Positions 16,542-23,550 of a DNA stretch of 29,547 bases are shown piece by piece (position 1 is the first letter of the stretch; every line of letters starts with the position of its first letter). The notes beneath the pieces are model-generated. The model saw nothing but the letters and a program-made list of their open reading frames with translations, ran no database searches and had not been told where the DNA came from. Source of the DNA: a virus. A program made the translations under genes and the position numbers. The stretch is taken from positions 1-29,547 of the IMG/VR virus record IMGVR_UViG_3300022865_000022; one strand, 5' to 3'.

Positions 16542-16856
16542 CTATCCTTGTAAAGGAGGTAGAGTTAGATGAGGTAGTTTATCTACTGATAGTACTGGAT
16601 CACCTGCTAATTCAGGTAAGTCAGCAATAAATAGTTCAGGTAGATCCTCTACTGCTGTTAAAGCAACACCCAGTATCTCTGGTAGTTCAGGTATAACCTC
16701 TAACTCAGGGACAATGCTTGTGGTAAACTCTGTAGCTATTGCAACTACTGGTGCTATAGTAGTAGGAATCTGTAGTTTATTATAGAACGCAATAAACAAT
16801 AGAATTACCACTATAGATCCTGCAGCGTAGTACTTTTCCTTTCTTTTGTTAGTCAT
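16542..16856 (-). CDS. Membrane-anchored Pro/Leu/Glu-repeat protein
   Basis: A 104-aa protein. A basic start (MTNKRKEKYY) is followed by one membrane span (AAGSIVVILLFIAFYN), so N-in/C-out is likely. The remaining ~75 residues are a low-complexity tail with repeated PEL units: IVPELEVIPELPEI, VEDLPELFIADLPELAG, then KLPHLTLPPL. GGAG lies before ATG. It sits between SSB and exonuclease in the replication operon, which is odd for an envelope protein. It could tether replication to the membrane or act in superinfection exclusion; both are speculation. Confidence 0.55.
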   Translation of the reverse strand: MTNKRKEKYYAAGSIVVILLFIAFYNKLQIPTTIAPVVAIATEFTTSIVPELEVIPELPEILGVALTAVEDLPELFIADLPELAGDPVLSVDKLPHLTLPPLQG

Positions 16857-17417: not shown

Positions 17418-18128
17418 TTATATATCGTTTAAAGAACCCCATGAATTTCCTACTTGTATATCAACCCTCATGGGTAAGTTGAATTCTTTACCAAAGATCC
17501 TATTAAAGTTTGCAGGAACATTAGTAAAAGAATCTTTAACTATCTGTACTATACTATTAGTATAACATACTTCTGGATCATAGTCAACCATGATACTATC
17601 ATGTACAGTATTGATCAATGTTACACCTTCCATATCTTTTATCTTGTTGAATAAACTAACCCGTGCTAGTGTCATAAGGTCAGCTCCTAAGCCCTGTACT
17701 GGGTAGTTGAGTATCCTAGTACGTGGATACTTTACATTGCCCATACTGTTCGTCTCAGGTAGGTACTTATACGTTCTGCCTGTTGGCATCACTAGTTTAT
17801 TCGTCTGCTTAACATCAAACATTATCTTATCATGCCATGCTTTTAATCCCTTATACTTGAGATAGAATTGTTCAATGATGTTCTGCCAAAACTTCTCATC
17901 ACCTATATCTTTAAAGTTAGGATCATTAGCATAACTGAATGCACTACCACCATAGATTAATCTAAACACGAATGTCTTAGCAATCAATCTACTAGGTAAG
18001 CCAAACCTTTCTTGGTTATCTGTATGTTGATCTATCTCTGCTAGTATTTCTTTTATAGCTATCTCATCCTGTGATAGGTAGGTAGCACACACCCACTCGA
18101 GAGCCTTAGCATCTGCGTTAAGTATCAT
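17418..18128 (-). CDS. DNA polymerase, family A: C-terminal half (polymerase catalytic core)
   Basis: A 236-aa protein carrying all three polymerase motifs. Motif A is NADAKALEW with D6 and E11. Motif B is RLIAKTFVFRLIYGG (R47, K51, Y59, G60). Motif C is TVHDSIMVDY with H176 and D177, where Ser replaces the usual Glu of HDE. It lacks exonuclease and thumb, which are on the separate upstream gene at 18375-19547. AGGA lies 8 nt before its ATG, so it is translated as its own subunit. It begins immediately before motif A and must pair with the other half to work. N plus C halves total 626 aa, in the range of T7 DNA polymerase (704). Confidence 0.85.
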   Translation of the reverse strand: MILNADAKALEWVCATYLSQDEIAIKEILAEIDQHTDNQERFGLPSRLIAKTFVFRLIYGGSAFSYANDPNFKDIGDEKFWQNIIEQFYLKYKGLKAWHDKIMFDVKQTNKLVMPTGRTYKYLPETNSMGNVKYPRTRILNYPVQGLGADLMTLARVSLFNKIKDMEGVTLINTVHDSIMVDYDPEVCYTNSIVQIVKDSFTNVPANFNRIFGKEFNLPMRVDIQVGNSWGSLNDI

Positions 18129-18129
18129 A

Positions 18130-18375
18130 TTATAATCCTGCGTTAGCTTCTACACTACGTTTAACATACTGATGTAGTATAGTATCTGTTAGTTCAGTCC
18201 GTGCTTCTTTCTTCATAGCACCTAGTACTGAGGCGGGTCCTTCTATTAGGATTAAATCACTAAACTCTTGTATAACAAAATGTTTATGTGCTTCCTCTTG
18301 TGCTTGTTGTTTTTCTTTAGCTTCCCATGCTTCTTCTTCTTCTGCAGTGTATCCGTCTTGATTATTATATAACAT
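18130..18375 (-). CDS. 81-aa gene inserted between the two DNA polymerase halves
   Basis: MLYNNQDGYTAEEEEAWEAK is followed by a charged, Gln/Glu/Lys-rich helix, then HFVIQEFSDLILIEGPASV, LGAMKKEARTELTDTI and LHQYVKRSVEANAGL, i.e. two or three helices. No motif of homing endonucleases, inteins or polymerases is visible. It starts on the stop of the N-half (TAATG, GGAG 7 nt upstream) and ends one base before the C-half ATG. It lies exactly between the LFPSRYG segment and motif A. It may bridge the halves, or simply be a cargo gene; no function can be assigned. Confidence is in the gene being real. Confidence 0.7.
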   Translation of the reverse strand: MLYNNQDGYTAEEEEAWEAKEKQQAQEEAHKHFVIQEFSDLILIEGPASVLGAMKKEARTELTDTILHQYVKRSVEANAGL

Positions 18376-19547
18376 TATGTTTCTCCATATCGTGAAGGGA
18401 AGAGAGTTTTAATCTCTCCATCAAAGTTTTGTAAGTTAGGAGCAGAGCTACTTAACCTACCCGTCTTAGTCCTACATTGATTAAGCTGACCATGTATTAT
18501 ACCACCACTCCAGTTCATCTTGTCAATTAGTTCAGGCACACCATGATAGTATGTTGTCATACGTTTCTGTAGTGTAGACCTTGTTAGTATTATGTTTAGT
18601 ATATCTTTACCCTCGTTGGTACGAGGCTTAAGATTCTTAAGAGTATCTTCATTGATACTAAAGAAGCCTCCTTTCTTAAGCTCAGTCTTAGGTAAAGGTG
18701 CTACTCGTCTAGGGAATTCTTTGTCCTTTTCTTCCCACTTATATTTGACTTCGCCAATCCGTAAGCCAGATTTATAATGTCCAATGGGGCGTTGAAAACG
18801 CTCCTTAATGATCCCACCGTAAAGAAAAGCAGATAGATGCTCACCAGAACTGGGATTAAAATCAGGGTAAGCATGATGGTTAAGAAGCCTTGCGTTAAGT
18901 TTGTCGATCTGTTCATATAGTTCATCTCCTAATACTTTAGAATGTTCATAGTCATACTTCATCCCTTGATACTCAATCTCTTGTAGTACCAATAGGTCTT
19001 GGTTATGTAGCGACAGTAGTCGTTTCAAGTGTGGCTGCTTAAGTATTTCTACTTGCTGCATTATCATTACTTGTTCTGTTAGTTTAACATCTTGTACTAG
19101 GTAGTCAGTTAGTATCTCTTCAGGTACCTCAGTAGTATCTATCCCATTCTTCCAGTAATTCTCCTTAACTTCGTCTAACTTCGTACCTAGCTCATAGAAT
19201 TCAGCAGTACTATTCAATGAAGGATAGGCATTCTCTTGGTAAGAGAGTATGTACTGTGCTAACTGACAATCCCATATCCTTTTATGATTAAACTTTATAC
19301 CATATCTACGTAACCAATGCAAGTCAAACTTAATATTAAACCCTACAAGCACATCGCACTCATCCACGGCTATTTGGATGTTGTCTAGTGATTCCTTATA
19401 GGGGTCAACGGAGTATTCTATCTTGTGTGTGGTAACTGTATCAGTTTTGTACACCTTATAGCCTACCATAACTAACTTGTTAGTCTTATCAAAGGGATTA
19501 CCTTTGTTACTTATCGTTGTTTCTACGTCTATTGTTAGATACTTCAT
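18375..19547 (-). CDS. DNA polymerase, family A: N-terminal half (3'-5' exonuclease and thumb)
   Basis: A 390-aa protein. The start at 19547 (MKYLTIDVETT) is chosen because GAGGAG lies 6 nt upstream; an extension to 19577 adds ten residues without support. The exonuclease motifs are TIDVETT (D7, E9), VGFNIKFDLHW (D75) and DYLVQDVKLT (D153). The thumb/palm entry includes NPSSGEHLSAFLYGG and CRTKTGRLSSSAPNLQNF, the conserved segment just before motif A. The protein then ends at LFPSRYGET, where intact homologues continue into motif A. It thus contains proofreading and primer-binding parts but no catalytic aspartates for synthesis; these are on 17418-18128. Confidence 0.85.
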   Translation of the reverse strand: MKYLTIDVETTISNKGNPFDKTNKLVMVGYKVYKTDTVTTHKIEYSVDPYKESLDNIQIAVDECDVLVGFNIKFDLHWLRRYGIKFNHKRIWDCQLAQYILSYQENAYPSLNSTAEFYELGTKLDEVKENYWKNGIDTTEVPEEILTDYLVQDVKLTEQVMIMQQVEILKQPHLKRLLSLHNQDLLVLQEIEYQGMKYDYEHSKVLGDELYEQIDKLNARLLNHHAYPDFNPSSGEHLSAFLYGGIIKERFQRPIGHYKSGLRIGEVKYKWEEKDKEFPRRVAPLPKTELKKGGFFSINEDTLKNLKPRTNEGKDILNIILTRSTLQKRMTTYYHGVPELIDKMNWSGGIIHGQLNQCRTKTGRLSSSAPNLQNFDGEIKTLFPSRYGET

Positions 19548-19612
19548 ACGTTCTCCTCGAGTATGGGGATACCTCATTAGGGGGGCTAGTCAAATCCCTT
19601 GGTATCAGTGCG

Positions 19613-22305: not shown

Positions 22306-22528
22306 CGTCATCATCATTCTCCCATTTAGTTGTACTTTTATTCCAGATACCTACATACTGATAGGTGTCCTCACTATAGTTACTAGGTAACTCTACCTTT
22401 TGTAGAAACTCCATGATTTTACTATTGGACATGCCATAAGGCATCTCATATTCAAGTTCAACTCTGATTACTCCTACCTTATGTTGATAGTATTCAGCAG
22501 AACGTACCTCTCTATGTCGCTTTATCAT
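22289..22528 (-). CDS. 79-aa hypothetical protein
   Basis: The start at 22528 (MIKRHREVRSAEYYQHKVGV) is chosen because GAGGAG lies 7 nt upstream. The middle has IRVELEYEMPYGMSNSK and FLQKVELP, and the C-terminus is acidic (NDDDDETNK). It overlaps the ArdC-like gene by 17 nt. A mixed alpha/beta small domain is likely. Family unknown. Confidence 0.5.
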   Translation of the reverse strand: MIKRHREVRSAEYYQHKVGVIRVELEYEMPYGMSNSKIMEFLQKVELPSNYSEDTYQYVGIWNKSTTKWENDDDDETNK

Positions 22529-23381
22529 ATACCTTCTCCTCATACTCAGGTGTCTTCATTATAAAGTCAAATGCTTTCTGTGCTAGTGATGCTGCCTTAA
22601 GTATGTGTCTGTTATCATTCGCTAGTACCTTAAGCCATCCTGCTATGTACTCTGTATGTTGTAGCCTACCTTCTATGCCGTTAGCATTACATAACATTGC
22701 AGCACCTAGCTCAGCTACTAGCTCTTCGAAAGCATAGGCTTCATTACCAAACTTACCTTCATTAAGCTTACGATCAAGGCGGGTATCAGCACCAGTCCAG
22801 TGTGTCATCTCATGTAACAGCGTAGCATAGTAGTCTTCAGAGGTATCAAAGTTTTTGAATGATGGCATGTGTATCTCATCCATTGATGGTATATAACAAG
22901 CGGACTCAAAGCCTTCTTTCATCTTAGCACCCGACTGTTTAATGATGTCATCTACATGATCCTTACGGAATCCTGTAGCTTCCCTAACAGGTAGTACTAT
23001 GTTACCCTCTAGTGCATCAAAGTTAAACACACGATAGACTTTCATTACCCTAGCATTAACATCATCACCTGATACCTTATCCTTACCTATGAAAGGTTTA
23101 TAAAAGAATACAGGTACAGATTTCATACCCTTTTTAATAGGATGATCAAGACCAGTGAAGGTCTTAGCTTGGTTATATGTACACCATTGAGTAGAAGCAC
23201 CTACATCTTTCTCATGAGCGTGCATGTTTAACCACATCCAGTTACCTCCAGTGTAAGCACGTTTAGTTACTAGATTCATAGGTCTATCAACAGTCCATGA
23301 CTTATACCATGCCTTAGGATCATCCTTCAATCCTTGAATAACTTTATCCGTTATCATCTTAGCTATTTCATTTGACTTCAT
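22512..23381 (-). CDS. ArdC-type antirestriction protein with metallopeptidase-like domain
   Basis: A 289-aa protein with the ArdC layout. The N-terminal ssDNA-binding-type domain contains WTVDRPMNLVTKRAYTGGN, NMHAHEK, QWCTYNQAK, GMKSVPVFFYKPF and VYRVFNF. The C-terminal zincin-like domain contains LLHEMTHWTG (H190, E191, H194 counting from MKSNE) and AFEELVAELGAAMLC (downstream Glu). ArdC proteins protect incoming plasmid or phage DNA from restriction, probably through ssDNA binding; catalytic use of the zinc site is uncertain. The start at 23381 fits AGGAG at 6 nt; an ATG two codons upstream is less well spaced. It is positioned among early genes, as expected for early anti-defence. Confidence 0.85.
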   Translation of the reverse strand: MKSNEIAKMITDKVIQGLKDDPKAWYKSWTVDRPMNLVTKRAYTGGNWMWLNMHAHEKDVGASTQWCTYNQAKTFTGLDHPIKKGMKSVPVFFYKPFIGKDKVSGDDVNARVMKVYRVFNFDALEGNIVLPVREATGFRKDHVDDIIKQSGAKMKEGFESACYIPSMDEIHMPSFKNFDTSEDYYATLLHEMTHWTGADTRLDRKLNEGKFGNEAYAFEELVAELGAAMLCNANGIEGRLQHTEYIAGWLKVLANDNRHILKAASLAQKAFDFIMKTPEYEEKVYDKAT

Positions 23382-23550
23382 TATCATCTCCTAATAGTTC
23401 TATTGAATCAATTTGAAAACCATATATATCTACTGGATCTAAGTTTTCAATTCTCCTCATAAAGATATTCTCTGCTGCATCTTTGTTAGGTGCTTCAATA
23501 TCAGCACCATATGAGGCTGATTCACTAGCTGTTATATAGTATCTAGGCAT
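23368..23550 (-). CDS. 60-aa hypothetical protein upstream of ardC-like gene
   Basis: MPRYYITASESASYGADIEA, PNKDAAENIFMRRIENLDP, ending IELLGDDNEVK; probably a small alpha/beta domain. AAAGGAG precedes the ATG, its start overlaps the previous stop (TAATG), and its end overlaps the ArdC-like start. Its family is unknown. Confidence 0.55.
   Translation of the reverse strand: MPRYYITASESASYGADIEAPNKDAAENIFMRRIENLDPVDIYGFQIDSIELLGDDNEVK

Follow-up and report, generated by a model that had tools for sequence, protein, structure and literature searches.

A family A DNA polymerase encoded in two halves divided before motif A in a clade of aquatic phages

The whole of IMG/VR virus record IMGVR_UViG_3300022865_000022 (29,547 nucleotides; hereafter, the window) was analyzed. 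Its family A DNA polymerase is encoded in two halves that are divided immediately before motif A, with an ORF for an 81-aa protein between them. We consider it likely that the polymerase gene underwent one ancient fission, probably through the cut of a homing endonuclease, and that it has since encoded a two-polypeptide enzyme with a swappable passenger at the junction.

The polymerase halves together cover an intact homolog

A sequence-only reading of this DNA had proposed three ORFs with a break just before motif A, and had assigned a ribosome-binding site to each (GAGGAG, GGAG, and AGGA). Coordinates and sequences bore this out, and all three sites were located ahead of the ATG start codons. 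The features are as follows.

19553..19558, minus strand: GAGGAG, Shine-Dalgarno-like site of the N-half
18375..19547, minus strand: polymerase N-half, 390 aa (PF01612 and PF00476 positions 49-132)
18383..18386, minus strand: GGAG, Shine-Dalgarno-like site of the 81-aa ORF, within the Y-G-E codons of the N-half
18373..18377, minus strand: TAATG, N-half stop overlapping the start of the 81-aa ORF, candidate translational coupling
18130..18375, minus strand: 81-aa ORF, acidic, predicted all-helical junction protein (AF2 pLDDT 86.6)
18136..18139, minus strand: AGGA, Shine-Dalgarno-like site of the C-half, within the final codons of the 81-aa ORF
17418..18128, minus strand: polymerase C-half, 236 aa, palm and fingers with motifs A, B, and C (PF00476 positions 154-380)
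18093..18113, minus strand: motif A, DAKALEW, whose catalytic Asp is C-half residue 6, in the first predicted strand (E2-7)
17952..17990, minus strand: motif B / O-helix, R47..K51..F55..Y59
17595..17603, minus strand: motif C HDS, H176-D177-S178

All three ORFs begin with ATG, and a Shine-Dalgarno-like site precedes each. The N-half comprises the 3'-5' exonuclease, the thumb, and the start of the palm up to TGRLSSSAPNLQN, and it ends in CRTKTGRLSSSAPNLQNFDGEIKTLFPSRYGET; the C-half begins with MILNADAKALEW. PF00476 together with PF01612, with motifs A, B, and C and the exonuclease collinear with Pol I, identifies a family A DNA polymerase. The two halves are separate ORFs with their own stop and start, and together they cover the intact homolog. 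The catalytic Asp is present in motifs A and C, and nothing is evidently missing from the polymerase sequence across both halves.

When the C-half profile was compared with solved Pol I structures, the alignment began ~4 residues ahead of the motif A Asp. Modeled on its own with AF2, the C-half (pLDDT 93.1, pTM 0.88) has a predicted palm/fingers fold, and a structure search matched the model to Bacillus and Taq Pol I (TM ~0.8, E ~4e-13). Based on the Pfam coverage of the halves, the start of the Pol I alignment, and this model, the cut was placed at the turn into the motif A strand. Elsewhere in the window, positions 22512-23387 (minus strand) encode an ArdC-like antirestriction protein (ArdcN and MPTase-PolyVal).

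The split defines a single clade

The window belongs to the lineage of MEP401 and MEP402 (phages of OM43 bacteria, Zobellviridae). Methylophilales phages MEP402 and MEP401 were the nearest isolates, with C-half identities of 85% and 84%, respectively, and both have the gene order of the window: N-half, small ORF, and C-half. IMG/VR also contains contigs that are identical or near-identical to the window. Chance or an assembly artifact was rejected as the source of this arrangement, since the same three genes occur in the independent contigs L001-L064 and in both isolates.

Relatives with C-half identities of at least about 38% were all split at the same residue, their N-halves ending in ...SRY(x)-stop and their C-halves beginning with M(I/L)(L/V)xxD, whereas relatives at ~30% identity (HMO-2011, HTVC033P, Percy, and many contigs) were intact at the window's break point. 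A few of the ~30% contigs encode the exonuclease as a separate ORF and have a whole polymerase domain. A scan of bacterial and archaeal genomes gave relatives at 25-31% identity only. In a C-half tree (95 sequences, built by a quick method with SH-aLRT as support), the 74 split rows formed one clade (SH-aLRT 99) with none of the 74 intact. The comparison of related polymerase loci that the sequence-only reading had called for thus found the arrangement to be conserved, and one ancient fission without re-fusion appears to be the simplest reading of these sequences.

That reading had also remarked on motif C, which reads HDS instead of HDE. The window does carry HDS, but the motif is found lineage-wide and is not tied to the split: it was invariant across an alignment of split and intact relatives alike. 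HDS is thus older than the split, and it was discarded as a special trait of the split enzymes.

Both halves are conserved across the clade (C-half dN/dS 0.05-0.22), and N-half distances track C-half distances (r = 0.93). This conservation, together with the intact exonuclease motifs and motifs A, B, and C of the window, argues against the halves being dead or decaying fragments in phages replicated by another enzyme. Stops or shifts in motif A of some relatives (see below) would fit such decay, which we nevertheless regard as extremely improbable.

The junction is variable in length and in content

Over 91 unique junctions, the gap between the halves ranged from -17 nt (an overlap) to 3.6 kb, with a median of 236 nt. 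The halves abut or overlap in 10 of the 91, and the gap is 1-99 nt in nine others. The earlier observation that the N- and C-halves share a reading frame holds for the window, where the 249 nt between them correspond to 83 codons, but the agreement is accidental. Gap lengths modulo 3 gave remainders 0, 1, and 2 in 38, 21, and 32 of the 91 junctions, and a common frame was therefore rejected as meaningful.

All 149 classified split rows have a C-half start codon (ATG in 145 and GTG in 4). Eleven more rows were excluded from this count, as the script saw no nearby start; they were mainly motif A-interrupted loci, contig edges, misclassified intact genes, and L084, in which a TTG just upstream of the C-half may act as the start. 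A Shine-Dalgarno-like motif lies within 16 nt of the C-half start at 51 of the 91 junctions, versus a background of 15% when every ATG of these loci is counted.

Junction contents include a 36-aa transmembrane (TM) ORF in L065, an unrelated 97-aa ORF in L072, TM proteins in L115 and L119, and, in MW202796, a cytosine methyltransferase with several other annotated genes. HNH endonucleases were identified by Pfam in the junctions of L122, L124, and L131, with related ORFs in L109, L123, L184, and L188. The window junction has no homing endonuclease gene.

Several other observations concern small genes around the polymerase. Junction cargo in L179 (598-777) and L181 (4632-4814) consists of 59-60-aa ORFs that appear glutaredoxin-like by eye (CPAC motif), and in L178 (4272-4814) of a 180-aa ORF that by eye is metallophosphoesterase-like, with no Pfam match at 0.01. 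Cargo can also stack at the junction: in L007, L009, and L013, where the gap is 463 nt, additional sequence with another small ORF separates the N-half from the usual small protein. In the window itself, a 104-aa TM, Leu/Pro-rich protein is encoded in the same operon at 16542-16856 (minus strand), after the gene downstream of the C-half. It weakly resembles the L115 junction ORF (BLASTP E 3e-4, a single pair), and small genes may thus shuttle around the polymerase operon.

The insert is very unlikely to be an intron and is not an intein

Yang et al. 2023 (PMC10580990) described the split in MEP401 and MEP402 and in most group I metagenomic genomes, suggested an intron, and left the matter open. 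Group I introns are frequent in phage polymerase genes, as cited there, and they also occur, by sub-threshold matches, inside the C-half of some relatives. With the agreement of the N and C frames in the window, these points would favor an insert that is, or contains, a mobile intron, spliced out to restore one polymerase mRNA.

Several results speak against splicing. The 246-nt ORF occupies the 249-nt insert and leaves no room for a ribozyme core. Rfam at the gathering threshold gave no match in the window, and a relaxed scan of 17900-18600 returned chance matches only (E >1), none of them an intron; the relaxed scan of MEP401 and MEP402 likewise gave no intron match. The same scan did detect RF00028 in the C-halves of L120, L196, and L201 (E 5e-5 to 4e-3), at motif B or the NYPVQG motif, and these matches serve as a built-in positive control. 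These putative C-half introns leave an exon 2 that mostly lacks a start, whereas the C-halves at junctions have ATG or GTG. Finally, the halves of other members abut or overlap with no insert. We therefore consider an intron very unlikely, and the earlier preference for three separate proteins over an intron stands. An intein was also rejected: the insert lies in a different frame from the halves and has its own start and stop, which excludes intein splicing.

The C-half interruptions at motif B or NYPVQG lie at ~2346-2577 in L120, 2431-3149 in L196, and 5917-6188 in L201, and the C-half is likewise interrupted there in L132, L133, L198-L200, and L206.

The 81-aa protein behaves as an exchangeable cassette

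The 81-aa ORF is in another frame than the halves. By profile, its family includes most of L001-L064 and also L066, L069, L070, L071, L083, L097, L098, L102-L104, L107, L121, and L124. A second set of junction proteins, of 60-65 aa, is found in the L125-type clade, and profile comparison of the two sets (hhalign E 4e-4, probability 36%) suggests common ancestry. One or the other set is represented in 66 of the 91 unique junctions and in 66 of the 72 junctions of at least 100 nt. The AF2 model, for which the alignment rows were the window and IMG/VR loci only, is all-helical (H11-45, H47-53, and H56-79). No significant match to the protein was found in Pfam, PHROGs, NCBIfam, PDB sequences or structures, or viral structures, and small ORFs beside intact or ICP2-type polymerases showed no resemblance to the family. 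A homing endonuclease was considered and rejected for this protein on the basis of the all-helical model and searches of Pfam, PHROG, and NCBIfam, which gave no HNH, GIY-YIG, or LAGLIDADG domain.

The sequence-only reading had suggested that the insert could bridge or regulate the halves. A dedicated third subunit of this kind would be consistent with the position of the gene between the halves with candidate coupled start codons, with its presence at 66 of the 91 junctions, with the long predicted helices, and with purifying selection on the insert (dN/dS 0.1-0.5). Sequence exchange at the junction points the other way. Between L018 and L026, the N-halves are 99% and the C-halves 93% identical, yet the inserts are only 32% identical. 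Compared with L036, the insert DNA of the window is 96% identical, most flanks are 71-81% identical, and the 3'-terminal 125 nt of the N-half 88% identical; compared with L004, the insert DNA is 68% identical and the adjacent polymerase DNA 92-96% identical. Insert distances track those of the C-half at r = 0.68, against 0.93 for the N-half. Swap boundaries lie near the polymerase stop and start codons. The insert is thus exchanged between phages as a cassette, independently of the polymerase halves.

The small protein can also lie off the junction or be missing. In L071/L073, the halves abut and a member of the 81-aa family is encoded ~2.2 kb upstream of the N-half. Neither profile found the small protein in the split genomes MW202697 and Alcaligenes phage QDWS535 or in the long contigs of L106, L110, L117, and L128, all of which are complete, near-complete, or long, although a very divergent copy could escape a profile search. 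Independent exchange, an off-junction location, and genomes without the insert sit poorly with an obligate, specific bridge, and the suggestion of a bridging factor was not upheld. We judge a dedicated third subunit unlikely. The insert could still be an optional factor that was co-opted, or a cassette directed at the host.

Our preferred explanation can be made more specific for the insert alone: the junction gene would encode an early phage protein that is rapidly exchanged, is directed against the host or its defenses, and occupies an insertion-tolerant spot. Cassette swapping whose edges fall close to the stop and start codons of the polymerase, an insert dN/dS above that of the polymerase (0.05-0.22) in most comparisons, and unrelated cargo at other junctions, such as the cytosine methyltransferase and the TM proteins, are in line with this proposal. 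The insert, however, has no family match to any known protein in the sequence and structure searches, and we put the proposal forward tentatively, as a possibility that falls short of probable.

Motif A is interrupted in some split relatives

Motif A is interrupted near Q-L/E-W by an insert of 1-10 nt, which mostly adds a stop directly behind DxxQL, in 15 of ~129 unique split loci. The raw script count was 134 loci with 20 flagged, of which 5 proved in-frame on inspection. The loci, insert positions, and, for some, inserted bases (in brackets within the motif) are as follows.

L109, ~970
L123, ~5001, CTT[TAGCTA]GAG
L179, ~867
L181, ~5001, CTT[T]GAG
L184, ~5001
L186, ~340, CTT[T]GAG
L188, ~5001, CTT[TAGCCC]GAA
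L191, ~4984, CTT[TA]GAG
L192 and L193, ~5001, 10 nt
L194, ~2114
L206, ~4185, CTT[TA]GAG
L258 and L273, ~3001
L302, ~3001, CTT[TA]GAG

The inserts occur at nearly the same codon position across loci. An HNH gene or remnant lies within 1.5 kb upstream in 7 of 14 interrupted loci versus 3 of 109 other loci (Fisher P = 5e-6, uncorrected for kinship). Frames downstream of the insert are conserved, with dN/dS of 0.11 for L191/L206 and 0.13 for L181/L186. L191 and L302 carry the same TA insert, although identity is just 56% over the 27 nt upstream and 62% over the 60 nt downstream. Some pairs, such as L192/L193, which share only the upstream side, are explained by recent co-conversion, so that persistence of the insert is not proven for all; the single-base inserts could be sequencing errors. 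At two loci (L131 at ~2954 and L192 at ~3858), the N-half ends early after GRLSSS(K/R)P and an HNH gene comes next (in L131, Pfam assigns it to HNH_3); this is another interruption, upstream of the usual junction.

In phage T4, a homing endonuclease split the topoisomerase gene, and ribosomes bypass the 50-nt insert of gene 60, where a UAG adjoins the take-off codon (PMC5009743). Some relatives of the window closely resemble T4 39/60 with mobA (PMC5009743, PMC2988022) in having a gene that an endonuclease probably split and, nearby, a short insert that breaks the coding sequence with a stop at what would be the take-off codon. Unlike T4, the window has no bypass-like insert, and recoding in the relatives is putative. 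The junction could be a homing-endonuclease battleground in which motif A inserts protect against cleavage and are crossed by recoding, and the window would then represent a calm state, with the helical cassette replacing the nuclease; we find this rather doubtful. The motif A inserts would, on that same doubtful footing, be an independent and recurrent counterpart of the T4 mobA/gene 60 bypass.

A model for the two-polypeptide enzyme

In the explanation that we favor, the polymerase gene would have been cut once, in the ancestor of the clade, at the turn that leads into the palm's motif A strand. Since then, the enzyme would have been made as an exonuclease/thumb polypeptide and a palm/fingers polypeptide that fold together. 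By analogy with known split enzymes, the halves would reassemble via the palm sheet and be active, in agreement with the view of the sequence-only reading that they must come together again. At the tightest junctions, the overlap of the N-half stop with the C-half start suggests termination-reinitiation, and overlapping stop and start codons may couple translation more generally. Neither half would need the junction itself, which would thus have come to tolerate cargo. The 81-aa acidic helical protein would be a passenger with its own function rather than an obligate bridge. A pure passenger model does not explain why the small protein is usually favored at junctions of at least 100 nt.

A homing endonuclease is the likeliest source of that first cut, judging from the HNH genes in the junctions of relatives and from the precedents of T4, Aeh1, and phage 25.

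Comparison with known split enzymes

The three genes of the window correspond to ORF13-ORF14-ORF15 of MEP401 and MEP402 (PMC10580990), which belong to the same lineage, and ORF14 is homologous to the window insert. The portions of that paper drawn on here are silent on the variability of the junction, the absence or swapping of the small gene, and a single ancient fission. The sequence-only reading had proposed a new polymerase architecture, should the arrangement prove conserved. This holds only in part: the split in this group was published in 2023, and split phage polymerases are known in family B.

The Aeromonas T4-like phages 25 and 44RR likewise have a two-polypeptide replicative polymerase, gp43A/43B (Petrov et al. 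2010, in PMC2988022), and the phage 25 gp43 halves are reported in that review to co-purify and to be active. gp43A/43B is a family B enzyme, whereas that of the window is a family A enzyme in which the cut at the motif A strand defines a clade. In Aeh1, as in the window, a gene splits an enzyme at a functionally critical site: NrdA in pieces, through mobE insertion (Friedrich et al. 2007, in PMC2988022, PMC10448857), is described as fully functional in PMC2988022. The Aeh1 insert is an HNH homing endonuclease, whereas the small helical protein of the window has no nuclease motif.

Vibrio phages ICP2 and VP41s3 (Zobellviridae) also encode a family A polymerase in two ORFs, with a gap that holds an HNH gene, a small ORF, or 9 nt only. 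Their break falls after NLQNISN, upstream of that of the window, and they are placed elsewhere in the tree, on long branches; the different break and the tree placement indicate that theirs is probably a second fission. Among these loci (L089, 3453-6021, NC_015158; L090; L092), the annotation of the ICP2 polymerase gives a CDS of two spliced exons that flank an HNH gene. In ICP2_2013_A_Haiti, however, only 9 nt separate the halves, and in VP41s3 another ORF lies between them; the splice annotation of ICP2 may be wrong.

Implications

The published remark "possibly an intron" can now be replaced by a testable proposal about a clade with a two-polypeptide family A polymerase. Surveys that rely on full-length PolA to mark phages may overlook or halve members of this clade, whose enzyme could serve as a natural split-polymerase scaffold. 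One site here brings together gene fission, the exchange of cargo, and homing endonucleases, and if the motif A inserts are recoded, they would be an independent natural case of bypassing besides T4. An entire clade of aquatic phages thus seems to replicate with a polymerase that is cut at the motif A strand.
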